This document shows positions 4,841 to 53,760 of a stretch of DNA of 64,000 bases, piece after piece (position 1 is the stretch's first letter; each line of letters starts with the position of its first letter). The notes beneath the pieces are model-generated. The model was given only the letters and a program-made list of their open reading frames with translations. It was not told the DNA's origin and made no database searches. This stretch comes from Isoetes taiwanensis (taxonomy: Eukaryota > Streptophyta > Lycopodiopsida > Isoetales > Isoetaceae), in NCBI GenBank assembly GCA_021234155.1, contig JAJEKV010000054.1, positions 8,328,655 to 8,392,654 on the forward strand, read 5' to 3'. A program made the translations under genes and the position numbers.

Positions 4841-5298
4841 CTGCAGATGAGCGGCAGATTCTCAAAGTATAACTTACATTTGCTTGCTACATTGTGGATT
4901 GAATTGGAAGAAAATATAAAGTTGTGCTACTCCATTTTTTGTGTGCCTGTCCATTATTATTCTATGCACTGCCCCAGAATTTTTATGGATGGGGATTTGA
5001 ATCCCTTGCCAATATTGGCAATGCCATGGCTGCTTTAAAGCAAGAAAAAAAACAAGGAACAGGGTATTTTCAAGCAAGAACAAGATAAAACCGGGACTCC
5101 GGGAGCCAAAAAAAAAAAAATCTGTTTAACCGGATTGAACAGGAAGCAAAGATGCAAGATGTATGTGTTCTATGCAAAATGTAACCGGAATGGAGATGAT
5201 ATGTAAAAATGTGGATGAAGGCAGAAAAAATGTCGGATTAACCATGGGATCTGTAAAAAAATGCAGAAGGATTAACAGGGTCTGTGAAAAAATGTGAC

Positions 5299-5420
5299 AG
5301 GAAAACGAGGGTATGGCTAGGGACATTCGAGACAGCGGAAGATGCAGCAAGGGCATACGATGAAACAGCTCGGTTAATGGGAGGGCCTCGGGCAAGAACA
5401 AATGCACTGCCAAATCCGTC
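5299..5420 (+). pseudogene. Captured AP2/ERF domain exon fragment
   Basis: The reading frame encodes [20 protein letters not shown] followed by a close match to the rest of the AP2 helix and ends in PRARTN. This is the second half of an AP2/ERF DNA-binding domain, closest in wording to the WIN1/SHINE group. The match begins right after GTGACAG, a good splice acceptor. SHINE-type genes have an intron at this point of the domain, so the fragment looks like a genomic exon 2 with its acceptor. After the RTN motif the similarity stops, although the frame stays open to about 5730. The domain's first half is absent, so no working factor can be made. It lies inside the Pack-MULE. Confidence 0.85.
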
Positions 5421-5799
5421 CTCTTCACTCTGCTTTCGACCTCGGCATCTTCCGAATCCACTTCGGCATCTGGCAGAAGAAAACCGGCTCTGTTTCCGGC
5501 CCCTAATTCCTCTGTTTCTAATTCCTGTTCTATGCATCTTGCCCCACAGACCCAAAAACACAGACCCAAAAACCGGATTGAAAGCCAGATTTGCAGAACC
5601 CATGCCCTTTTTGTCGGATGAATGCCCATGCTCTTTTCCTACTTTTGTAGGGCCGCAGATCCATGTTAGGGCTTCTTGCCGCCGCTGTGGCTGTCGGTTC
5701 CTCCGTTCAATCTTCATCTGCCAATACTGAAATCGTGATTGATTTGTCTTTTATCCATTTGAGTAACAAGGACTCAAAAAAGGAAGGCCGGCTATGGCT

Positions 5800-7187: not shown

Positions 7188-8438
<1,251 letters not shown>

Positions 8439-10078: not shown

Positions 10079-10083
10079 CTAAC

Positions 10084-11585
10084 TGTGATGTCCCCTACTC
10101 GTATACGATGCCCGCACCATATACAAACAGGAGTTCATCCCCCGCACCAGCTCCACACTGATACAGGGCCCTCCACATATCACTGTGACCGTCTAGAGTC
10201 CACATTGGGAAGAGTGAAGGGGTCATTTTACCCCGTCTCCCTCAGGACCTACCTAGCTGCGGAAGCGTAAACATACACGTCAGTAACATAACATCATATA
10301 TCCACCTCGAAGGGTGGCACATCAACATCTGCATAGACAAAGATCAGCACAGTACAAAGGAAGTTCCTACCCAAGGCTCGGACACAGGGATGGACTGACA
10401 AGCTTGGGTCTCCAGAGTTCGTTGCAGACGGAATCATGACAATGGAATTGGCTGGCATAAGAACATGGTATTGGGTTGTCCACACCATCCGCCCCTCCTG
10501 TGCACACTTTGCAGAGTAGGTTGAAAAGTGTTGGAACCGGACTGTAGCCCGCCGGGTGCATAGCCAAAGGGGCTACTCCTGGGTTACATCTCCCCAGGCC
10601 CGATGGGGCAGGTAGGGATCACTCCCACCCGAGGTCTACATGCTGACCCAAGGTGACTAGAGGGCCACTGCCCTTATTCGACTTAACCCACTGGAAGGTG
10701 AACCCCACCCCACGGGTGTCGAGCCCATGCCTTGCCCACACTCAGTGGCAAGCCATTAGACCTAGTCACTCTGATCCCCGGTAGGCCTTACACACCAGAG
10801 GGATCGGTCAAGGGTCAGAACACGAACCTCGTTCTGAGCCAGTCTGGTCCCTTCACCCACAACCAGGTGTGGTTCTTGTACACAGGCCGAAATCTAGTAA
10901 TGCACTAAGAGGGACTAACTAGGGGCATCATCTACTAAGCTTTAAGTCTCTACCCCCCTTCCCAATACAATGAGTTCACAGAATCCATCCGTCCATCATA
11001 TCAACATAATAAATAATAAAGAACTAATCTATCTCATAGAGTTAGGTTCTTTAGTTAAATCAATCTCGGGATCTACTTGGCTGCTAGGGGTGATCTAATA
11101 GGCTGAACCTACTGATTCGATGGCTGGAGTAAGGTTTATGCTATTTGATCGACCAAATACCTGATCCCTGGTTCACTCCTCTTGATCCGAAGGCGTCCAT
11201 GTCCTTGTTCTGCTTTGGGATGCGGTCGGAGGAATGATCTGACTAGCTGGGGCGCACAGGCAGATCGTGGGAGTTGGAATTGACTCCTCAGGCGCGCGAA
11301 TCGAGGCTCGGAAGGTCTGTGGGCGAAAAAGGGGGATTGTTAGGGTTTAATGCCTTATGTAGGCTATCAGTTAGGTTTAGGGTTGTCCATGACCCTTGGT
11401 CTACCTTTAATGGGTTAAAGGTCTAAAGGTGCGCGCCTTGCCAAGTGTTCGCACGATTGCAAGTTGCCCCCTAGGGCGTCCTTGCTTGGGTATGTGTCGG
11501 CGTACACGTCGACTGGACGGCGTGTACGCGTGACGGCGCAGTACGGTATACGTCTTGAAACCGTATATCGTACTGGAACGTCACA
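10084..11585 (-). repeat. 3' LTR of the chromovirus unit
   Basis: 1,502 bp, starting TGTGATGTCCCC and ending GAACGTCACA on the plus strand. It is bounded on the outside by the CTAAC duplication and on the inside by a minus-strand polypurine tract. It pairs with 40855-42362. Identity is very high over the central kilobase and lower near both ends. Confidence 0.93.
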
Positions 11586-12412: not shown

Positions 12413-15400
12413 TCAAATCGACATGCCTGAGCCGATTTCTTCGGAGATGACCTTGCCGTCCCATTGCTCCATAAACTGTGGGTACTGTTTTTCCAGATCT
12501 CTTTTGAGTACCCATGTTGGCAAGTGTTTCCACTTGACCAAGTATTGGAGAAACTCCGATCTCCTTGTTTTCTTGAATGCTTTATCAAGAATTAGCTCTG
12601 GAATTATTTCTAACTGCTCTTCTGTCATTTCCAACATCGTTGGAGTGTCCAAAACTTCTTCTGGATTGGGAGTTTGCTTCTTCAGCAGACTCACGTGGAA
12701 GACTTTGTGTATCTTTAAGTGTGCTGGCAAGTCTAGTCTGTAGGATTGGTTACCCACTCTCTTGACTATTTTGAATGGTCCAGCCCACCTTGGAGCAAGC
12801 TTCTTGCAATTTCGATCGCGAGCTTACCGCTTTTACCTTAATCTTGAGCCACACATTGTCGCCAACCGAATTCCTCGACTGTTCGATGCTTGTCTACGAT
12901 GCTCTTTTGACGACTTCTTGGCGCTGGGAGATATCCCCGCACTTCTTCTACTAGGCTGTCACGCATGTCGCTTCGGCATTTGTTGGGAGACTTCCACTTT
13001 TGACACGCGGGATTGTGCCAAGTGTGCGGAGTTAGGCATTGGTAGCCGTAGTTGATCATGAACGGTGACATTTGGGATGATTCTTGCTTGGTGCTATTGT
13101 ATGCAAACTCCACCAAGTGAATAAATTCCTCCCACATACCTTGCTTGTTCCAGACATAGTTTCAGAGCATGTCTTCCAGAATTCTATTGACACGCTCTGT
13201 TTGCCCATCCGTCTGTGGATGATAGGCCGTGCTCATGGATAGCTTCGTTCCAATCGTTGTGAAGAGATCCTGCCAGAAGGCGCTGATGAACTTCGGATCT
13301 CGGTCGGAGATAATTTCCCTTGGCATGCCATGAAGTCGAAAATCTCTTTGGTGAAGAGCTTTGCGCGTGTCCATAGTCGTGTAAGGTGGTCCCGCAAGGC
13401 ACAAAATGGGCCATCTTCGACAACTTGTCGACCACGACCATCAAGGCGTCCTTACCTCTTACTGTCCTTGGAAGTCCTGTTATAAAGTCCATGCTGACGA
13501 CTTCCCACTTAGCGTTTGGCACCGCTAATGGTTCCAATGCTCCTGGGATTCGGAGTTGTTCTGCTTTTGTTTGTTGGCATAGCTGACACTCCTTGATGTA
13601 GCGGGCTATCTGCTTCTTCATTCCCGGCCAATAGTAGCTGCTACGCACTTTAAAATATGTCTTCATAAATCCTGCGTGGCCAGCTATTGGGCTGTTGTGG
13701 GTGTCGTGGAGGATCAACTTTCTTACTCCTGATGATTCCGGCACGCACAACTTGTTCTTATGGTATAGGAGGTTACCTTCCTTCTTAAAGTTTTTGAAGG
13801 CTTCCCTCTCCTTATCCATTCTCGCTTCCTTGGACAAGCTTGCCCATACTTCTTTGAAGTCCTCATCCGTTGGCAAGGTTTCTTCTATCTTTTTCCCGAA
13901 ATCGCTGAAGAGCGTCGAGATTGCATTGCAGTGCACTCTGGTTGTCAGTGGATGCCTTGAAAGCGCATCTGCTACTACATTAAGCTTCCCGGGTTTGTAG
14001 ACTATCTCAAAGTCGTACTCCTCAAGAAATTCCATCCACCTTCTCGCTTTCCAGATTGAGATGTGGTTGCGTGAATACGTATTGGAGGCTCTGGTGATCA
14101 GTGTCCAACTGGAATTTCCTCCCTAAGAGGTAATGCCTCCAGATTCTCAATGCCCTGACAACTGCTAGCAGCTCTTGATCATGCGTCGGGTAACGCGTTT
14201 CGGCGTCGTTCATTTTCCTTGAATCGTACGCTATTACCCGCTCTTCTTGCATCAGCACTGCACCTGTGGCTATCTTGCTTGCATCCGTTGCCACCAACTT
14301 ATCCTTCTCCGGGTCTGGCAGGGTCAAGACGGGGGCGGTTGTCAAAGCTTCCTTCAACAACTCAAATCCTGCTTGGGCCTTCTTGAGCCAATGGTCTGCC
14401 CAATTTTTTACTTTCTCCGCCTTTGTTAAGTCCGTCAGTGGGGCTGCTATCTTTGCGAAGTTCTTCACGAACTTCCTGTAATACCCTGCTAGGCCGAGGA
14501 AACTTGACCGACCTGCGTGGGCGTTCTTTGGTGCCGGCCATTGGATTCTTTGCTTCAATCTTGGCGGGTGCGCCGAGATTCCTTCTGCTGAAATCACATG
14601 ACCGAGGTATTCCACCTTCTCTGTTGCGAAATGACACTTCGACTTGGCATACAACTGATGCCTCCTTAACTTCTCGAGCACCTTCCTGAGGTGCTGAGCA
14701 TGCTCTTGAATTGATTTACTGTATACCAGAATGTCGTCGAAGAATACTATGACAAAGGTGTCTAAGTATTCTCGGAAGATGTCGTTCATGAGTCTCATGA
14801 ACGTAGCTGGGGCGTTGGATAGCCCAAATGGCATTACGGTGAACTCATAATGCCCATACCTGGTCCTGAAAGTCGTTCTGTGGATGTCCTCCTCTTTTAT
14901 TCTGATCTGGTGATAACCTGACCTTAGGTCGATTTTGGAGAAGACCTTTGCCCCTTGGAGCTGATCCATCAAGTCGTCTGATCTGGGAAGTGCGTACTTG
15001 TTCTTGATGGTGTGCTTGTTCAACTGTCTGTAATCTATGCACATCCTCAAGCTTCCATCCTTCTTCTTGACAAAGAGGATGGGTGCCCCAAATGGTGAGA
15101 CACTAGGCCTGATGAAGCCTAGATTCAGCAATTCTTGTAGCTGCTTCTTGAGCTCTGTGAGTTCATGTGTGGTCATTCTATATGGGGCCTTGCTTGTCGG
15201 CTTGGTCCCTGGCTCGAGTGCTATCTCACATTCTACTCCCCTGTAAGGAGGAAGCTTCTCGATCTCATCTGGAAAGAGATCGTGGAACTCCGTAATCAAG
15301 TTGGCGATTGGCTTGGGTAACTTGCTGAGGCCCTTGTCTTCCTTGCTTTCTTCCGACTCGGGTTCCTCAATCTCGAGCTTGAAGATGTATGCTACTTTCT

Positions 15401-15625
15401 CGCTCCTTATAGATTTGAGCGGTTTTTAACGGACATACATTGCATGATGGGGTAACTTCTTTTACGCGTGATCTCAATGGCTTTGCCGTCGGGCGTTGGG
15501 AAGGTCACCTTCCGCTTTCCACAATCTATGATGGCCCCTGCTGGACCAAGGTACTCCATTCCAACGATCAGGTCGTATTTGCCAATGCCCATTACTTCCG
15601 CCCCCATCTGGATATTAATCCCCAC
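12413..15625 (-). mobile_element. Chromovirus pol region (PR, RT, RNase H, IN, chromodomain)
   Basis: Read on minus from high to low coordinates. A protease tail comes first (about 15625-15407, KYDLIVGMEYLGPAGAIIDC). Reverse transcriptase follows (about 15300-14500), with [40 protein letters not shown] and FFDDILVYS. RNase H lies at about 14400-14020 and integrase at about 14035-12840, with an HHCC zinc region (H-HN-AGHAGF, CQLCQQTKA) and a core containing MDFITGLPR. The C-terminal part (12757-12413) has IPELILDKAFKK and YLVKWKHLPTW, the wording of a chromodomain. The order and the chromodomain identify a chromovirus of Ty3/gypsy. The region is broken at a few places. Confidence 0.92.
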
Positions 15626-15827: not shown

Positions 15828-17170
15828 TTATCTTTGGGTCTCTGCTGTTTCAGTATCTATAGCAGCGAAGATGTGGCACTCACCCTGAATGTAATCACGT
15901 GCCTCCTCGCCGTCCTCGTCTGACGGAGTGTCCCATCCGCCCAACTCTGCTAGCGCTGAGCTCATAACAAATGGGCAGTTCGCTGTTCTGTGGCCCGGCT
16001 GGAAACATCTAAAACAGAGCTGCTTCTCCATGCATTCCTGCCTTTTCTCCTTGGGCATCGCCTGCAAGAAGGACCGTACTGCTTTCGAGTAGTTGGATCC
16101 TTCCTGTTTGTCCTTGAAGGACACCTGCTTTCTTTCTTCTTTGTTTCCCACGGGTTGCTATTATATGGGGCTTTCTTTGGGCTTGGGTTGGCTGCCCTAG
16201 GACTGTAGCTCCCTGTTGCTTTCCCTCTATCCTGATAGTAAGGCTGCCTCTGTGCGCTGTTCTGCGGCCCCGATCCTTGCAAACTAATTGCCTTGGACTC
16301 CGCTTCAGACACTGTTTTGGGGTCTATTGCCCTTACGAGTTTCCTGAGTTCCTCGTTCAGCCCTTCTATGTAGCTTTCCACTGCGTGTTTCTCGCTTAGT
16401 TTAGGCACATACAATCTTAGCCTCATGAACTCTTCGGTGTACTTCTGCACCGTCTTGTACCCCTGCTGCAATCTGTAAAACTGTTGCATCATGTTCGACT
16501 TGTGTTCCCGAGGAACATAGTGTTTCTTGAAAGCTTTTGAGAACTTCTTAAATCGGCATGCGTCCCTGCTCAACCCATGGGCTTTGGCATAGCCCTTCCA
16601 CCATATGCGTGCGGCCCCTTTCAGGTTGGCTGTCGCCACCCTGCCTTTGTCTTTGTCCTTCATGCCATAGGCATTGCCGTACTCGCTCATTTCGTCCAGC
16701 CATGTCTCCGCCGCTAGGCCGGATCTGTTCTCACCCGAGAACTGTTCGAGCTTCCGGGCTTTCCAAACATTGCCCAGTGCTGAGTCCACCTTCTTCTGGT
16801 AATCTAGGGCCTTAGTGTCCTTCTGTCTGCCGTCTCTACGGTCCGGCGCCTGCTCGGCCTCTTTTTCGGACTCAGAGTCCGAGGTTGAGCTTGATTCGGA
16901 GGTCTCTGTGCTAGGGGACCTCCTTCTCTTACTCCTTTTCTTGTCTTTCCCTGACTTCTGGGGTGTCGTTTGTGGCCCGGATGATGCTTGGGCTGCTAGT
17001 AGGGCCTTTATCTGGTCCAGGTCTGTTCTCATCTGCGACAGCTCTTCTTCTGGTGTCATGGGGCCATATCTCTCGAATCCTTTGAAGGGGTTGCCTGTCA
17101 GGAGTTTCTTCATCTCTGTTGGGCCTCCTGTTTTGCTCGACTGTTCGTTGTTCCCTTTCTGCATACACAA
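15828..17170 (-). mobile_element. Chromovirus gag region
   Basis: An acidic, serine-rich N-terminal part is followed by a retrotransposon gag core (about 16750-16350: AETWLDEMSEYGNAYGMKD, WWKGYAKAHG, FKKHYVPREH, FYRLQQGYKTVQKYTEEFMR). A CCHC zinc knuckle, CFRCFQPGHRTANC, lies near 16030. Gag packages element RNA. The coding region is not in a single intact frame and is treated as a fossil. Upstream (17171 to about 17450) is AT-rich leader or flank of the nested transposon. Confidence 0.88.
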
Positions 17171-17480
17171 TTGGTCATGGTTGTAAGGTTAGTTTTGTTT
17201 GTTCTCTTGCATTATATGTGTTGTTGGTATAGTTGCGGAACAAAATATATCAACAAAACATTTAAAAATGCAGAAGAAGTTATATTTATATTATATAATA
17301 ACCATCATTCAATTAAATTGGTTTATGTCTTAATTTTGGGACAAATTTCATATTGCATGTTTTTAGTAGCATATTCAAATTCACACATTTCACCTCAAAA
17401 TTATGAAAACGTAATATCATGTTATTTACAAAATAGTCAATATTTCACAATATAGCACCATATCATAAAAACGTGATAAC
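17171..17480. other. AT-rich junction between gag and nested transposon
   Basis: No gene. It contains the start of the gag leader and probably the 3' flank of the nested element at about 17480-20155. The exact junction and any target duplication were not found by eye. Confidence 0.35.
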
Positions 17481-36639: not shown

Positions 36640-37720
36640 CTATTCTTGATAACGCCGGTAGGATGGATTATCCTCTAGGAACTTCTTCACTTGGGCTGTT
36701 CCCACTGAATGACCCAAGTTCCTAAGTACGTTGACTGAAGATCCTCCCTGCAAGGCTCTCGCCAAGTCTTCGACTCTGCGGTCGGAGGTATAAGCTGCGG
36801 TCACCGCCAGTCTTCCCTGCCGCCTGTAAGGTATGGCGAAGTCGAAAACATCGAGTGCTACCGCTCTCTTCACCAGGATGGCATATTCGGTGTTGAGGGG
36901 TAGCCGAGCATGCCGGCCAAATCCTGAGAGCGCGATCAGCATCGACACTCCTTCTTCGCCCCTGGGGGTGAATTTGCGGTGAATTACCGCTATTCTTCCG
37001 TCCATCAGCAGGGGAAGGTAATACCGCAACGACCTGTCGTTGCGTGACGGGTCCTCGGCTGCTCGGTATCCAGCTCTGTGTCTGCCCGCAAAATCATCAA
37101 CCTCCACCGTGGTGAGCTCCCTGTAGTCCCTGACTGTTGCTGAAGCTCTTCTGAAGTCGAACTCGCCTCTTCTCTCCCGGGGAGGTGTTGGCGAAGCGCT
37201 TGCCGTTAAGATGTTCGATGTCGCGTGGCGAATCCCCATCTGTTCCTGTAGGGCAAGGAACTCTTCCTCCGTTGGTAGCTGGTTCGGCCCGGATTTGCCT
37301 CCATAATCCGCCGTCGATTTTGTAGGATTGATATCTGGAGGTCGACTCCCCGTGGGGCACTGGGCTTCCCTTACCGGAGGGGAAGTCGAGGTTCCTCGGG
37401 ACGATGAAGTCGCCCAGATCCGCTCTTCTGAGTTGGTGCAAAGAACTCCTCGGTCGATACTCCCTTTCCCTCGCGACCGGAGGTTTTGGATGTCGCTTTT
37501 AGGAGCAAAAATTCTTCGGCCGACACGATGGGGCTAGGCTTGTAATGCCTAGCCCAAGGGGTGGCGCTGACTCTAAGAGTTTCCGCCTTCTTTCAAGTCT
37601 TGCCACTCTTGTTCTCGCTTGTTGCCGCTTCTTCCTGGTCGAGCTCGACGTGAGTCGTCATCCCTCTCCTTCCGACTCGCCTTCTTCTTCTTCTTCTTTT
37701 CCCTTCTTGCTCTCGCTCAT
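36640..37720 (-). pseudogene. Unknown cargo gene C (hairpin-associated)
   Basis: Minus-strand gene whose largest open part is 199 codons (37239-36640), with FDFRRASATVRDYRELTT, YYLPLLMDGRIAVIHRKF, ALDVFDFAIPYRRQGRLAV and a C-terminal KKFLEDNPSYRRYQE. Upstream coding-like sequence extends to about 37715, where MSESKKGKEEEEE begins. The whole lies downstream of a TATA box (38300-38291) and two hairpins (38776-38509). It is not in one intact frame. I do not recognise the family. Confidence 0.45.
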
Positions 37721-38300: not shown

Positions 38301-38508
38301 AAAAGGGGAAAACCCTAATTTTTTTTTTTTTTTTTTTTTTTGGATGACTTGGAAAATTCCTGGGGTTGGGCAATTCTAGTTTATACTGAGGTCAAAATGG
38401 GAATTTGAAGACTAGTTCAAGTGTTTGAGCGTGGTTGGATTACCTAAAAGATGCTATACAACAGGTTGGAAATCCTTTGGGCAAGTTTTGGTGAAGAAAT
38501 GGTAGGAG

Positions 38509-38575
38509 GTCTCACAGCTTGCGCCTCGCTCAAAAACTAAAGTTTAGTTTCTTGCCCAGGCGCGAGCTGTGAGAC
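38509..38575. repeat. 67-bp hairpin copy 1
   Basis: Arms GTCTCACAGCTTGCGCCT and AGGCGCGAGCTGTGAGAC surround a palindromic core AAACTAAAGTTTAGTTT. It is upstream of cargo gene C. Confidence 0.85.
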
Positions 38576-38709
38576 ATCAGTCTCATTTCGATCAAAACAT
38601 GTCCGATTTGAATAAACTAAGGGTATAAGGATGATGGGCTCATCAAATCAGGTAGAATCGACCCTCTATTTGGTCGATTTGGAGCTGTTTTGGGCGAGTT
38701 TTGGTCAAG

Positions 38710-38776
38710 GTCTCACAGCTTGCGCCTCGCTCAAAAACTAAAGTTTAGTTTTTAGTCCAGGCGCGAGCTGTGAGAC
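38710..38776. repeat. 67-bp hairpin copy 2
   Basis: Same arms and core as copy 1, starting 201 bp further from cargo gene C. The two are near-identical over the full unit, while the DNA between them is unrelated to the unit. Confidence 0.85.
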
Positions 38777-38921
38777 ATCACGTCTTTCGGTCTGCAATTG
38801 TCCTATTTTGCTGAAATAAAAGCTAAAACCTGCTAATTCATCCTAATTAGTCAAGTTCAGGCAACTAAAGTACACAAAATTGTTCCATTTTACAAAATTT
38901 TCAATTATTTACAAAAAGGTT

Positions 38922-40180
38922 CTAAGGACGTTCTCCCTTAATGCGTCTAGCAAGATACATGTCTTGCCTCATAAGGGTTACTCGTTTGGCATGGACAGTG
39001 CAAGATGTTGAGTCTTCGAAATGTTGCACTATAAACTGCTCAGCCGCTTCTTGTAGTGCCAGCAGCATTTCATCCGTGACCCTAAAGTCAGTCCTGAAAT
39101 CCTGCATTACCTCTCTAACTAGCCGAGCAAAGGGGCACGGGAATCGGGAAGCCGAGGCGCTACTGGAAGTGCCGAATCTCCCGTGAGTGCTCTTTGCTCG
39201 AGCTGCTTCTTAGTGAGCTTCTTCCGGGAAGGCTTTTTGGGACCTTGGGCTTTGGTGGTGGGGGTCGAGGGTTGCCGCTTTGTGGGGTGACCCCTTCGAT
39301 GGTCCTCGGACCCTCGTTCTCCCGGTAGTAGGAGTTGTATTCCTCCCACTCCTTCATATAGGCCTCGTGGTCCCGATCTTTAAATTTCGTAGACTTTGAT
39401 GGGGTTGGTGACGTAAGACTCTCGGGCAGGGGGTTGCTTCTTCTCGCCCCATTTCGGGTAAGGAGGGGGCTTCTTCATCGTGTCCTGCTGCTCCTCCTCG
39501 GTGCTATTCGCTTTCGGTCACCACCGCTCTGATCGGGGTTTGGAGGAGCCTGCACCCTCAGTGTTGGGATTATGATCACCGTTAGACTCGTCCGAGGATG
39601 CCGGGGGCTGATCAGGTGGTCTTTCGTTTATCACTATCTTGGGATTGGGCGTTTTCTTCAGCTTTCTTTTGGGCTGCTCCACGGCTTTGCCCTTCTTCTT
39701 CTTCAGTTCTTCGGCCGCTTTTGCCTCCTCCTCTTCTCTCTTCCTCTTCTTTTGTTCCCTTTTTCTTTCTCGGCGTTCATATTTCCTGATGAAAGCAGCG
39801 AGGTCTGCTTGCTCTGCCGGCTGAAGCCTCGGCTCGCTCTGCTCCTGCTGCTCCTCCGCTTCTTTTTCTCGAATCCAGGCTTCGACTTGTTCCTCAATGG
39901 TCGGCTCTGGAGTCGGCATCCTCTGTTCCTGTCTGGCCTTGGTTCTCCTTTCTCTCTGTACTCCCTCCTCCTCTTCCTCAATTATCTCCGTTCTTGCTTC
40001 TGAGTGTACTTCTTCTTCTTGATTGCGCTCGTTCGAAGGTTCTCCTTCACTCGAAGAAGATTGACCGTTAGGGTTAAGGAGGCGCTCCTGCAGCATGCGC
40101 CGAATTACGCTGGGATCAAGGGCGCTGGTTGATTCGCCTGGGCGGGCCTTCCTCGCAGTCTGTTTTGTTCGGGCCATCAT
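38922..40180 (-). pseudogene. Histone H3-like gene with H3 tail and long charged middle
   Basis: The minus-strand gene starts at MARTKQTARKARPGES (40177): the nine residues after Met equal H3 residues 1-9, including Lys4 and Lys9. About 200 residues of highly charged, coiled-coil-like sequence follow (to 39518), then a Pro/Lys-rich part (about 39440-39190), REIRHFQ (near 39165; H3 alpha-N region) and a histone-fold C-terminus (39107-38922: [40 protein letters not shown]). By eye, about half of the last 61 residues equal canonical H3. Loop 1 has H3 length, while HFQ and VTLMR recall CENH3. A normal H3 has 136 residues; this would be far longer. It has about two or three breaks. Just inside the PBS of the LTR unit, with its own TATA box and two hairpins. 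Confidence 0.8.
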
Positions 40181-40285: not shown

Positions 40286-40390
40286 TAGCTCGGTAAATTT
40301 TTAGGTCAAAATTCAAGTTGCTCTATTTAACCTGCTAAGGCACCTATTTAATTAAAACTTACACTTATTTCAGACTTTTCCTACTTATTG

Positions 40391-40457
40391 GTCTCATTGT
40401 GTCTACCGCTTCAAAAAACTAAAGTTTAGTTTTTAGTCCAGGCGCGAGCTGTGAGAT
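40391..40457. repeat. 67-bp hairpin copy 3 (left arm degraded)
   Basis: Core AAACTAAAGTTTAGTTTTTA and right arm AGGCGCGAGCTGTGAGA are kept; the left arm is partly changed. About 110 bp upstream of the H3-like TATA box. Confidence 0.75.
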
Positions 40458-40580
40458 CTCACACATTTTTAAGTAATTTGAGTAATCAAATCATGCTATT
40501 CTTATTAATTCCTATCTTAGAATTAGTTTTACCATATTAGTTTTCTCAAATTCATCATATTTAAGTGACCTTGGCTCGAT

Positions 40581-40647
40581 GTCTCACAGCTTGCGCCTCG
40601 CTCAAAAACTAAAGTTTAGTTCTTCGACCAGGCCGAAATGCGGAGAC
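40581..40647. repeat. 67-bp hairpin copy 4 (right arm degraded)
   Basis: Left arm GTCTCACAGCTTGCGCCTCG and core AAACTAAAGTTTAGTTC are kept; the right arm has diverged. It is 190 bp from copy 3, close to the 201-bp spacing of copies 1 and 2. Confidence 0.75.
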
Positions 40648-40841
40648 CACCTCACTTTGGCAAAATTTTTGGCTCATTCTTTTTAGTTTTATTAATTTCC
40701 AATTCACTTAATTGTTACTAGCTTAGCATAAACTACAAAAATGAGAAAACAAATTTCCCACTTTTCGAGGCTTGAGGATCTTATCAAGTTAGTACTACTG
40801 GGAGTATGGCCAGTGCTTTGCTCTTGGTCTCCAAGAACATA

Positions 40842-40853
40842 GCTCTGATACCA
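40842..40853 (-). promoter_or_regulatory. Primer binding site (initiator tRNA-Met)
   Basis: Minus-strand TGGTATCAGAGC, complementary to the 3' end of plant initiator tRNA-Met, one base from the end of the 5' LTR. It fixes the orientation of the 32-kb unit as minus. Confidence 0.9.
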
Positions 40854-40854
40854 T

Positions 40855-42362
40855 TGTGACGTCCCCTACGTGATAACGATGCCCGCGACCGTATACAAAC
40901 AGAGTTCATCCCCGCACCAGCTCCACATCGATACAGGCCCTCCACATATCATCGCGGACCGCCTAGAGTCCACGCGTGGGAAGAGTGAAGGGGTCATTTT
41001 ACCCCGGCCCCTCGGGGCCTACCTAGTCTTGGAAGCGTAAAACATACACGCCAAGAATATAACATCATATATCCACCTCAAAGGGTGGCACATCAACATC
41101 CGTGATAGACAAAGATCAGCACAGTACAAAGGAAGTTCCTACCCAAGGCTCGGACACAGGGATGGACTGACAAGCTTGGGTCTCCAGAGTTCGTTGCAGA
41201 CGGAATCATGACAATGGAATTGGCTGGCATAAGAACATGGTATTGGGTTGTCCACACCATCCGCCCTCCCTGTGGCACACTTTGCGAGTAGGTTGAAAAG
41301 TGTTGGAACCGGATTTGTAGCCACGGGTGCATAGCCAAAGGGGCTACTCCCCGGGTTACATCTCCCCAGCCCGATGGGGCGTGTAGGGATCACTCCCACC
41401 CGAGGTCTACATGCTGACCCAAGGTGACTAGAGGGCCACTGCCCTTATTCGACTTAACCCACTGGAAGGTGAACCCCACCCCACGGGTGTCGAGCCCATG
41501 CCTTGCCCACACTCAGTGGCAAGCCATTAGACCTAGTCACTCGATCCCGGTAGGCCTTACACACCGGAGGGATCGGTCAAGGGTCGAGAACACTAACCTC
41601 GTTTCGAGCCGCCTGGTCCCTTCACCCACAACCGGTGTGGTTCTTGTACACAAAGGCGAAATCTAGTAATGCACTAAGAGGGACTAACTAGGAGCATCAT
41701 CTACTAAGCTTTAAGTCTCTACCCCCTTCCCAATACAATGAGTTCACGTAATCCATCCGGTCCATCATATCAACATAATAAATAATAAAGAACTAATCTA
41801 TCTCATAGAGTTAGGTTCTTTAGTTAAATCAATCTCGGGATCTACTTGGTCGCTAGGGGTGATCTAATAGGTCGAACCTACCGATTCGATGGTCGGAGTA
41901 AGGTTTATGCTATTTGATCGACCAAATACCCGATCCCCGGTTCTCCTCTTGATCCAAGGCGTCCATGTCCTTGTTCTGCTTTGGGATGCGGTCGGAGGAA
42001 TGATCTGACTAGCTGGGGCGCACAGGCAGATCGTGGGAGTTGGAATTGACTCCTCAGGCGCGCGAATCGAGGCTCGGAAGGTCTGTGGGCGAAAAAGGGG
42101 GATTGTTAGGGTTTAATGCCTTATGTAGGCTATCAGTTAGGTTTAGGGTTGTCCATGACCCTTGGTCTACCTTTAATGGGTTAAAGGTCTAAAGGTGCGC
42201 GCCTTGCCAAGTGTTCGCACGATTGCAAGTTGCCCCCTAGGGCGTCCTTGCTTGGGTATGTGTCGGCGCATTACACGCCGACCGGAATGGTGGTAATGCT
42301 GGCGTGACGCCTTGAGACGGTGATATCGCCTTGAAACCGTGATATCGTGATCGAACGTCACA
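40855..42362 (-). repeat. 5' LTR of the chromovirus unit
   Basis: 1,508 bp, starting TGTGACGTCCCC and ending GAACGTCACA, followed by CTAAC (42363-42367), the same 5 bases that precede the other LTR. The PBS adjoins it on the inner side. Confidence 0.93.
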
Positions 42363-42367
42363 CTAAC

Positions 42368-48221: not shown

Positions 48222-50954
48222 TTAAGTACCACAATAACTATCTGTATAATCAACAAGAGAGCAATCGAATGAACCTTGACATTGCCCCAAGCCCACATCT
48301 ATTTCTTGTTGCATAGTTCTTTTCTTTTGAGCCCGTGACCTGGTCCATTGCATAATTCCTGGATGGCTACCATTAATCATAACTTCCTTTTGTCTTCGCC
48401 CTGAAAATTTACTTATTCCTGATTTTGGTTTCAACCTTGAACTAATTTCATCTGCTCTCCGTTGCCTTATAGCTTTGGATGGCACCATGCTAAAACCCCG
48501 TTTTGATTTTAGTTGTTGAAATTCATGTCGGACTTGCCGAAGCATTGTGAGCATGCTTTCCATGAGAACAACATCATTTGAATACTCTAAACGGAACATT
48601 TCCAACTCCAAATCTAGTTTTTCGTAGAGCAATTTCGCATTCATGTTTGAGTGAACTGTATCACTGGCTATTGCAAGTTCACCCTCCACGTTTTCTGATA
48701 AAAACATTGGAAGATTGTTATCAGCTTTTGTTAATGGCTGAGACAGTGTATCAAAAATGTGCCATGTTGATCCATATAGCATCATGTAGGTCTTCAAAAC
48801 ATGCTTGCATATGTTGCCCTTCTGCGACCACAAACAATCGCAGAAAGAGCATTCTGATCCAACATTATAAACAGTATAGATGACATGCTGCTTCGAGCAG
48901 CTACTAACTCGAGCGATTGACCCATCCAGGTCTAAGAATTCGACCTGATTATCCAATATTTGCAATGCCCTCCTATAAGAATTTTCAATAATCCCATCCA
49001 GCTGCAAACTGCAAATTAAACCATGCTGTTTTTGGAACTGGAAGTATCTGTAGCAGCTTTGTATTTCAGTTGTCAACTTGTAGACCAACCAATCTACTCT
49101 ATGCTCTTGTATATGACCTATCTCTAGGAATCGCTGCTCCATGGTGTTATGATATGCCTCTACAGATGCATTGACGCCTTGACTTGCATGTCTCAGCTTT
49201 CTTGCAGTTTCAATCCATTGCTCTATGACATTTAAACATATGTTAACATTATTAGAATGATCTTCAACATCTGTAGGTAACAATAGCTAATAATATCTCA
49301 CCATTATTAGGAAGCCATTCTTGCATAAAGTAAACCAAAAATGCATTTTCATGTTGGTAAAGCTGCATAAAACTTTGAACCAAAATAGATGCCTGCTTTT
49401 CCGAAGACTCGACGACTTTGTGCATGCACATTATTTCACCTAGCTTCTTTAGCATGTCTGCTCTTGCGCTCCAAGAATTTACCATTGTCATGAGATGTCT
49501 TAGCCAGTTTGCCCTTACAGTCCACAAGCAGATATACATTTCCACTGCAAAGACGCGCCTGGAAGAAGGCAAAACGAGTTGAGTTTATGATTGCAAAATA
49601 ATACTAAAGGTGCAGAAACAAGACCGTATAACACTGCTGTCAAAAGTTGGATTGTCAATCATGAATGCTTTTGGCGACCAATCAGGTGAATGTTCTAGTG
49701 CACGTGCTCTTAAAGCTTCCATCCAGTTTTCAATGTCCTTTTCCTTTGAGCTTGATGTTATAACCCAAGCTACAGGCAGGGCACTTTGAAACTCATCAAA
49801 TACCAGCAAACTGTACAGAGGATACTGCACCAGATAGTGCCATTGATTCAAAATTATTAAATGTATAAGACTTATAAACTCTTAAATGCATTCTTTTTTA
49901 CCAAATCAACGTCTCACAGTAAAATCTCACCTTAATATCTTTTGCCCCAAATGTGGAGTCACATGCTATAATACCATTGTGGCCATACTGAATAAGCATA
50001 TCTCGCTGCCAGATGGACTGAATTCCCAAAGTGAATGGGCTTAGACAACCCTCACAGTCCTGATAAAAAAATATCATATCCTCATTTTGCTCTCTCCATA
50101 GCCGAACACTTTCCTCGTCATTAACATGTAATTGGAATGTGCCTTTTTGCACCTTCCGGGCAAGGTTAAATACATCCTTGGAACGTAGAAGGTCATCTCT
50201 GTTTAAAGAACCAGCATCTCTTGCTTGTCTTTCTCGAACGACTTTGATATGTGCATCTAAAATTTCTGATGGAGGTAGACCTACATAGAGCATTGACAAA
50301 ACCCACTGCCTAAGTGTGTCAGATATTCTAGGTGCTAGCATTGGCCGCATCCCTAAGACACTTGCATCTAACCTCCCATGACAAGGCTGTGTGTTTTTGT
50401 CAACATGCAAAACCTGCTGATATGAGATGAGTGCAACATTCGGATGCAGATATAAACGCTTTACTGCAAAGTGACATTGGCAACCTCTTTTAATGGAGCT
50501 GTTCAGACGCTTAGGCCTACTTCCTGGGCCAGCCTTGGGTCTATCCTCACTTATCACCATGGCAGATATTGCCCCCCTGTTATCTGTTGGACCGTAGGAG
50601 CACCAATAACTAACAAACATCCAGCAATTAGTTCATGCTGCATAAAGACGAGATCTAAGGAAATGTAAAAAATTGAGATGGAGCTCACACAGTGTTTGAT
50701 ATCCATGAGTCTGCTTTTGGTCTGGAAAGTGATCCAGGTTCATTCTTCAGCTGGCTACGTTTGTGAAAATAGGTTGGGGAATCACTATTGGCCTCTTCGC
50801 CCTTGATGAAATCTCCAACACGATCATAAGGAATATATGCACACTTCACTTTTCCAATTGTATTTGTTGGAGTATCAAAATCATGCCAGGTAATATCATG
50901 AAAGGAGAAAGGCCCTGTCTTTGGATGCTGAACAGGCAATTTCTGGCCTTGCAT
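48222..50954 (-). CDS. SWIM zinc-finger protein derived from a MULE transposase, five coding exons
   Basis: Exons on minus: 50689-50954, 49931-50609, 49625-49824, 49302-49558 and 48222-49222. Phases fit and they total 2,403 bp, 800 residues. All borders are GT-AG, but the donor after exon 3 is weak (GTCTTG). Segments match the plant SWIM-protein family (Arabidopsis At1g60560-like, from memory): YWCSYGP and GCQCHFAVKRLY (zinc-binding N-terminal part), a MULE-type DDE region (IACDSTFGAKDIK, YSLLVFDEFQSALPVAWVIT), and a SWIM motif CSFCDCLWSQKGNICKHV near residue 620. The start ATG lies just after a TGCAG acceptor, so a 5' untranslated exon is likely. The frame is intact, unlike every transposon around it, and it has no terminal repeats, so it looks like a domesticated host gene. 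Its role is probably nuclear; the exact function is not known. Confidence 0.85.
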
Positions 50955-53039: not shown

Positions 53040-53760
53040 GTCCCCTGCTGAAGCACCCATATTCTTCCTCAAAAGGAAGGACGATTCTCTGCACCTCGTC
53101 GTTGATTATCGTGGCCCCAACAAGATCACAGTGCCGAATTGCTATCCAGTTTCACTAATTTCATAGTTGTTGGAGCCGCTCCAACATGTGCATTATTTTA
53201 CGGAGATTGATCTTCGGGGTGCCTACAATCTCATCCAGATCCAAGAGGGTGATGAGTGGAAGACAGCATTTCATACTAGATATGGCCATTTTGAGTACAC
53301 AGTTAGGTCTTTTGGGCTTACCAATGCTCCAGCAGTATTCCAGCATATGGCCAATGATGTCTTCCAGGAGGTCTTGGATATTTTTATTATCATCTATTTG
53401 GATTATATTCTTATTTATTCTAAGACTCTTGAAGAGCATGAAAGGCTTATTCGTAGGTCCTCCAGAGGTTTCGTGAGCATGGGTTGTATACCAAACTCGA
53501 AAAGTGTCAGTTCGATGAGGATATTCTGGAGTTTCTTGGCTATCGTATCACTCCTCATGGAGTCTTTATGGATCCCGAAAAGGTCAGCACTGTTTTAAAG
53601 TGGCAAACACCTTCTTTCGTCCGAGATGTTCAGTGTTTTCTTGGATTTGCCAACTTCTATTGACGTTGTTTATTCGGGATTATTCGGAGATCATCCTTCC
53701 TTTGACATGGCTCACGGCAAAGGATGTGCCATTTGAATGGAGTGTGGAAGCATAAACTGC
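53040..53760 (+). mobile_element. Ty3/gypsy reverse transcriptase relic
   Basis: Contains FTEIDLRGAYNLIQIQEGDE, FHTRYGHFEYTVRSFGLTNA, an altered YLDD-like box (YLDY) and EHERLIRR. The TNAPAVFQHMANDVF wording differs from the chromovirus at 12-17 kb, so it belongs to another gypsy lineage. It is short, broken and old. Confidence 0.8.

Follow-up and report, generated by a model that had tools for sequence, protein, structure and literature searches.

The H3-like gene in this stretch of Isoetes taiwanensis DNA is almost certainly the first open reading frame (ORF1) of a large and diversified lineage of chromodomain-bearing Ty3/gypsy elements, descended from histone H3 and selected as an H3 fold. 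The loci that we read fall into four groups, A to D, with intact ORFs of about 367–460 aa, and in every group ORF1 lies behind the primer-binding site (PBS) and ends in the H3 αN helix and the histone fold. By the window we mean the whole stretch of DNA that was analysed, 64,000 nucleotides in length.

Results and Discussion

The element in the window

The window holds a 32.3 kb LTR retrotransposon on the minus strand, a Ty3/gypsy element with an integrase chromodomain (Table 1). Its LTRs of about 1.5 kb are 93.1% identical in a blastn self-comparison of the window, and the paired LTRs with target site duplication (TSD), the PBS, gag and pol identify it as an LTR retrotransposon. Reverse transcriptase (RT) and RNase H stand ahead of the integrase and the chromodomain at the integrase C end, as in Ty3/gypsy chromoviruses, the full minus-strand order being ORF1, ORF2, gag, RT–RNase H, integrase and chromodomain. 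Chromovirus-type stretches matching the window were also found at L018, L026, L028 and L043. Given the position of the PBS, the ORF1 ATG lies 673 nt inside it, so that the first-pass annotation had correctly placed the gene about 0.7 kb inside the PBS of a 32-kb LTR-bounded unit. The two other complete copies are about 11 and 13 kb long against 32.3 kb here, and extra ORFs within the unit, some of them on the plus strand, look like inserted sequence.

Table 1: Features of the element on the 64,000-nucleotide window (positions count from its first letter).
Feature	Position	Strand	Evidence or remark
Target site duplication CTAAC	10079..10083	.	
3' LTR	10084..11585	-	93.1% identical to the 5' LTR (blastn, window against itself)
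Integrase C part with chromodomain	12413..12823	-	SH3_Tf2-1 E 1.1e-19; Chromo E 9.8e-6, just over its cut-off
Integrase N part, H2C2 zinc binding	13184..14122	-	
Reverse transcriptase and RNase H	14022..15425	-	
gag (Retrotrans_gag, Ty3_capsid)	15962..17188	-	Pfam
ORF2 3' part, without Pfam match	36640..37533	-	also in L043; profile relation to A/B ORF2
ORF2-like start	38177	-	by eye
Strong stem-loop downstream of ORF1	38498-38590	-	z -7.1
Strong stem-loop downstream of ORF1	38700-38790	-	z -8.2
ORF1 histone H3 fold	38922..39143	-	PF00125
ORF1 middle part, other frames	39160..39474	-	by eye like the uninterrupted middle of open group C ORFs
ORF1 N part: MARTKQTARK tail and charged region	39518..40180	-	stop in the window copy
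Sites of two group C leader stem-loops	40386..40648	-	window z -0.2 and -1.9, not clearly above shuffles
Primer-binding site TGGTATCAGAGC	40842..40853	-	1 base past the LTR; similar junction at related loci
5' LTR, TGTGACG...GTCACA ends	40855..42362	-	
Target site duplication CTAAC	42363..42367	.	

Elsewhere in the window we noticed fragments of further retroelements at 362-2276 (RNase H and integrase) and 53167-53598 (reverse transcriptase). The protein segment encoded at 48225-49286 contains a SWIM zinc finger and is perhaps part of a MULE-type transposase. A match to peroxidase at 7837-8175 (E 1.8e-19) and a weak one to AP2 at 5257-5730, below its cut-off, are probably host genes or fragments.

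The H3-like gene was first described as a product that opens with MARTKQTARK, runs through a long charged region and ends in an H3-type fold, and each part of this description was borne out. The minus-strand ORF starting at 40180 begins with MARTKQTARK, and the charged region is seen between tail and fold. Separate profile searches of the two segments, which had been proposed as a check, identified the fold piece as a histone (PF00125, E 1e-21; best PDB match a canonical H3 chain, E 4.3e-23) and gave no Pfam match up to E 1 for the N part. The reading frame changes between N part, middle and fold, so the window copy is broken, as had also been recognized.

Copy number in the genome

The genome searched comprises 1,658,258,908 bases in 1110 contigs. 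A PF00125 profile search returned 8705 first-look candidates, 150 of which were scored. Fifteen of these are near-full-length, canonical-type matches (profile positions 2–122, at least 164 bits) and the other 135 start at profile position 4–25, in open frames of 108 to 494 aa; 20 of the 135 were read. With degenerate patterns we counted 2436 sites for AIHAKRVT, 1193 for the C-type motif T(I/M/V)HAKRVTLM and, with an exact degenerate pattern, 1051 for MARTKQTARK, compared to 0 genome-wide for the reversed patterns of all three. The AIHAKRVT and C-type sets are disjoint, canonical H3 genes are counted within the AIHAKRVT and MARTKQTARK sets, and the location inside elements was established on sampled sites. 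A genome search with the 220-aa N part of the window ORF, in which 150 of 14458 candidates were scored, gave 198 matches. A chance resemblance is excluded by these 198 matches and by the 1051 tail sites against none for the reversed pattern.

Tail and fold were also found linked. On contigs C1–C190, where all three motif lists are complete, there are 45 MARTKQTARK tail sites, two of them canonical genes. Fourteen have the C-type fold motif 0.9–1.4 kb downstream on the same strand, four have AIHAKRVT at this distance and 25 are without an intact fold motif downstream; no fold partner occurs at equal distance on the wrong side or strand. Because of this pairing the linkage reaches well past the loci that were read. 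Separately, three MARTKQTARK sites with an identical 30-mer stand about 5.8 kb apart on one strand of contig C217 (G000; positions 120970, 126779 and 132560), perhaps a tandem host H3 array.

Four groups with different N-terminal designs

The A and B loci are 20 taken from the best histone-profile scores, mostly for their long open frames. Group A has 13 loci, whose ORFs, if they still have their start, open with MPRFKLT or MSRFKLT; the seven of group B begin with ME. Their complete ORF1s of 400–459 aa consist of a conserved N domain, a charged linker, a rebuilt tail and the αN helix with the fold, and the N domains of A and B are 33–38% identical. Group C, to which the window belongs, was read in 12 other loci picked for a strong N-part match and an open frame. 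Eleven of them start with MARTKQTARK (L035 has MAQTKQTARK), seven run in one frame through to the fold end, and the group C ORF1 has strongly charged stretches with basic runs. Group D was met as three decayed copies through the MARTKQTARK pattern before three open copies of 376, 372 and 367 aa were read, two starting with MARTKQTARK and one with MARSKQTARK. By eye, C and D have a middle motif PPYPKW ... PPPP in common.

A profile comparison revealed no relation between the C N part and the A/B N domain (E 0.38). The A/B N domain had no PDB match with a single sequence and an unconvincing best profile match (E 0.18); against Pfam the best match, in two of 15 members, was equally unconvincing (E 0.036). 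Of 1999 matches in the protein database, five among the best 120 were examined and none is a long relative with the element N part: the first-ranked one (P0001) is a tandem-H3 gene model and the other four are H3 repeats or fusions. The simplest reading is a single ancient capture of H3 with an N part that was later replaced or diverged fast; several separate captures are possible.

Strong stem-loops of about 80 nt accompany the group C genes: each of the 12 loci (L031–L042) has two in the leader, and 11 have one or two downstream of ORF1. The window copy has a strong pair downstream, and its leader pair is not clearly stronger than shuffled sequence (Table 1). Leader scans in the other groups found some in B (2/2) and A (1/3). 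The stem-loop sequence is nearly invariant, with changes on both sides in one of 27 pairs.

Position within the elements

An exact PBS was found upstream in 13 of the 20 A/B loci, 0.6–0.73 kb ahead of the ORF start where that is present, in the stretch of 11 of the 12 C loci, and as GCGTCACA-A-PBS in both D upstream flanks that were checked. Besides the window element, two further insertions are complete: L018/L029 with TSD CAATC and an LTR pair about 93–97% identical, and L045/L034/L043/L046 with TSD TTGTG, an LTR pair 93.7% identical and an end piece of 99.3%. Three complete elements flanked by CTAAC, CAATC and TTGTG thus carry the same gene at the same place, the kind of support that the first-pass annotation had named.

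Sixteen of the 20 A/B loci have a same-strand gag match further downstream, and ORF1 is upstream of gag wherever both were found (these 16 and the C element L043). Between ORF1 and gag there is an ORF2 of about 460–480 aa where open (L011, L014, L020, L021, L023 and others), present in 18 of 19 A/B loci scanned; L018 is without it and L026 was left out of the scan. ORF2 also follows ORF1 in the C loci and in the single D downstream stretch checked, which had no gag match within 2.8 kb. The window piece and the ORF2 of L011 and L020 had no Pfam match, and by profile comparison C and A/B ORF2 are related (E 3.5e-5 over the N part and 1.5e-4 over the C part). The suggestion that further copies would carry the gene between PBS and gag therefore holds for its place behind the PBS in all four groups, but a second ORF mostly precedes gag. 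A further ORF piece of about 120–200 aa, EETLEEYEDRI-like or a relative, was seen between ORF2 and gag in 10 of the 19 A/B loci scanned (L009, L010, L012, L013, L014, L015, L017, L020, L024 and L025).

In RT matches of at least 126 aa, L013, L018, L019, L024 and L028 are 70–76% identical to the window and the C element L043 84%. Short RT pieces at stretch ends reach 45–66% (one 28-aa piece 86%), and L026 and L044 39–51%, the matches of these two probably deriving in part from other elements. L013:1-1030, next to a group B element, holds another copy of the window family, which has an internal deletion, an LTR end and a PBS-like junction.

Had the H3-like sequence occurred only here, it could have been a host H3 pseudogene inserted by chance into one element. 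The hundreds to thousands of motif sites in the genome exclude this case, all groups sampled have the same gene in the same position, and nothing was found in favour of a chance insertion; we reject it as refuted, with a probability close to nil.

Relation to H3 and CENH3

Among the core histones the ORF1 fold is closest to H3, as it matches PF00125 and H3 chains are the best among the PDB matches listed. By size ORF1 falls outside the H3 family, which has tail and fold continuous in about 136 aa, against about 367–460 aa with the tail separated or rebuilt. Identity to the host canonical H3 is 82 and 85% in two A copies, 87% in two B copies, 56–60% in three C copies and 58–60% in two D copies. 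The descent from H3 that had been proposed is supported. In a tree that includes L038 and rows for CENH3, CENP-A and human H3, and covers groups A to C, a starred branch sets each of these groups apart (97/94, 98/98 and 100/99), and the grouping of the canonical H3 rows is less well supported (91/89). The host H3s L001–L008 and 17 of the 20 A/B copies have AQEF in place of the AQDF of Nymphaea and human H3; this is a small hint that the capture may have been from this host lineage.

With host H3 and CENH3 the elements share the fold, the αN helix and the bundle, and differ from both in the long N-terminal part and in being element-encoded. The CENH3-like residues HFQ, LLIPxAPF and VTLMR occur in group C and partly in D, so that the resemblance to CENH3 first noted in HFQ and VTLMR applies to one group fully and to another in part. 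The other half of that remark stood throughout: loop 1 has H3 length in the aligned A, B, C and D copies and the longer CENH3 loop is absent.

Selection on ORF1

We calculated dN/dS by the Nei–Gojobori method as medians over pairs, excluding saturated pairs. The A/B values derive from 16 of the 20 loci (L014, L022 and L026 have no ORF start and the end of L019 is extended), those for C from six of 12 (L031, L032, L033, L039 and L041 are broken and L038 has a shifted stretch). In the H3 part dN/dS is 0.034 in group A (range 0–0.16, dS 0.90; 45 pairs, two saturated) and 0.018 in group B (0–0.069, dS 0.61; 15 pairs), both biased down by the choice of A/B loci from the histone-profile ranking. For the group C fold it is 0.076 (0.037–0.199, dS 0.66; 15 pairs), a less biased value because these loci were chosen by N part and open frame; as all copies used are open, dN is lowered throughout. 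The N domain gave 0.107 in A (21 of 45 pairs saturated) and 0.159 in B, the linker 0.216 in A (14 saturated, up to 0.91 in one pair) and 0.117 in B, and in group C residues 1–160 gave 0.175 and the region from 160 to the fold 0.143. Between A and B dS was saturated in 60 of 60 pairs for both N domain and H3 part.

A median of 0.02–0.08 in the H3 part at dS 0.6–0.9 means that the gene is selected as H3. The many broken copies, the window included, and the 25 of 45 tail sites on C1–C190 without an intact fold motif might be expected of a passenger, a captured host gene fragment copied along without function, which we regard as very improbable given these medians, the 0.11–0.22 elsewhere in ORF1 and the retention of the gene by four divergent groups. 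Selection that keeps ORF1 working suggests that the elements interfere with or exploit host chromatin.

Residues, tails and possible function

Residues were classed as bundle or DNA contacts by their role in H3, with L038 dropped. At the H3–H3' bundle the elements agree with host H3 in 104/104 cells for A, 56/56 for B and 42/48 for C, and the loop-2 DNA contacts are kept in 52/52, 28/28 and 24/24. A and B differ at a few helix-1 and loop-1 contacts (64/78 and 39/52 cells kept in A, for example), and group C keeps 18/36 and 6/24, with the changes R63P, K64R, L65A, F84V, Q85T and S86D. Residues 40–45 of C, outside the segment cut for this comparison, are by eye unlike HRYRPGT. A normal nucleosome with the C protein is doubtful because of these residues and the changed DNA contacts. 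Also by eye, none of the 20 A/B loci has ARKS at K9 or K27, KKPHR has become RKPHR (A) or RRRHR/KRRHR (B), and the K4, K9, K27 and K36 contexts are gone in both groups; tails rebuilt in this way could not receive marks in the manner of host H3. The exact ARTKQTARK N terminus is mostly retained in C and D.

Of the mechanisms that may explain this we favour deposition on chromatin, then a decoy, then packaging. We propose tentatively, at somewhat less than an even chance, that the H3 variant of the elements forms pairs with H4 and has its effect on element or target chromatin. The protein would be made from the 5'-proximal ORF1, enter the nucleus, pair with host H4 via the kept H3 fold and four-helix bundle, and replace host H3 on element or target chromatin; the altered tail and the added N domain would then change what the host reads and writes, and the element would avoid silencing or steer its integration. 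We infer the pairing because fold and bundle are preserved and a role of the tail because two tail designs exist; deposition and an effect on silencing or integration are likewise predictions. The place after the PBS in four groups, the high copy number, the fold and the purifying selection support this model, and an integrase chromodomain is encoded alongside the ORF1 H3; the N-terminal part of 270–350 aa, which is large for a nucleosomal H3, speaks against it. A more speculative and rather doubtful extension is a selfish nucleosome, in which each element's own H3 variant would coat element or target chromatin, resist silencing and guide integration, one branch being free of the K4/K9/K27/K36 sites and the other presenting the exact H3 tail on a long stalk.

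Of the three aromatic cage positions the integrase chromodomain appears to keep only the tryptophan, and because the two others are missing a reading of H3K9me by the integrase is unsupported. In keeping the cage tryptophan alone it resembles type II chromodomains as defined in the available part of PMC6317226, where their partner is said not to be identified.

The same tails and folds would serve a histone mimic acting off chromatin. The host's readers, writers or chaperones of H3 would then be titrated, by the ARTKQTARK tail in C and D or by the fold in any of the groups, and silencing would be weakened. That 11 of 12 C and two of three open D loci begin directly with the exact tail fits such a decoy, as do the changed helix-1/loop-1 DNA contacts of C with a bundle mostly kept. 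A and B, however, have no free H3 tail and yet the lowest fold dN/dS (with the selection bias given above), and they keep most DNA contacts; we judge the decoy unlikely. Still less likely is that the ORF1 protein with host H4 condenses element cDNA or RNA into mini-chromatin in the particle or pre-integration complex: the strongly charged stretches with basic runs, the kept loop-2 contacts and H3–H3' bundle and the place of ORF1 upstream of gag (16/20 and L043) agree with it, but a host histone partner would be needed inside the particle and a gag with capsid match is already present.

Comparison with known systems

Virus-encoded histones are known from Marseillevirus and, as H4, from bracovirus. 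They too are histones encoded by a parasitic genome, whereas here the carrier is a retrotransposon and H3 is joined to element-specific domains. The closest precedent found is that of fungal hAT transposons, which captured a host H3 and multiplied it in Pyrenophora tritici-repentis, Pseudocercospora fijiensis and relatives (PMC6710886; PMC3538342, both as far as their available text goes). According to the accessible part of PMC6710886, P. tritici-repentis has 26 H3-hAT copies, many potentially active, and P. fijiensis hundreds, all inactivated by RIP except the original gene. In contrast to these class II DNA transposons the quillwort element is class I, with H3 as the C-terminal domain of ORF1, under purifying selection and in two N-terminal designs. 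With plant chromoviruses (PMC6317226) it shares gag, RT–RNase H, the integrase chromodomain and the TGGTATCAGAGC PBS, and differs by one to three extra ORFs ahead of gag, the first being H3. Among the titles and abstract openings listed from the open-licence literature we found no LTR element with an H3 gene, and the word histone occurs 0 times in the available main text of the Isoetes taiwanensis genome paper (PMC8566536).

Conclusion

Transposon silencing acts mainly on histone H3, and with an H3 of their own, strongly selected and abundant in the genome, the elements would have a direct counter-move in this conflict. As natural H3 variants with rebuilt tails, the ORF1 proteins offer a way to test which residues silencing needs. 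Counts of H3-like and CENH3-like genes in such genomes can be inflated by these elements.
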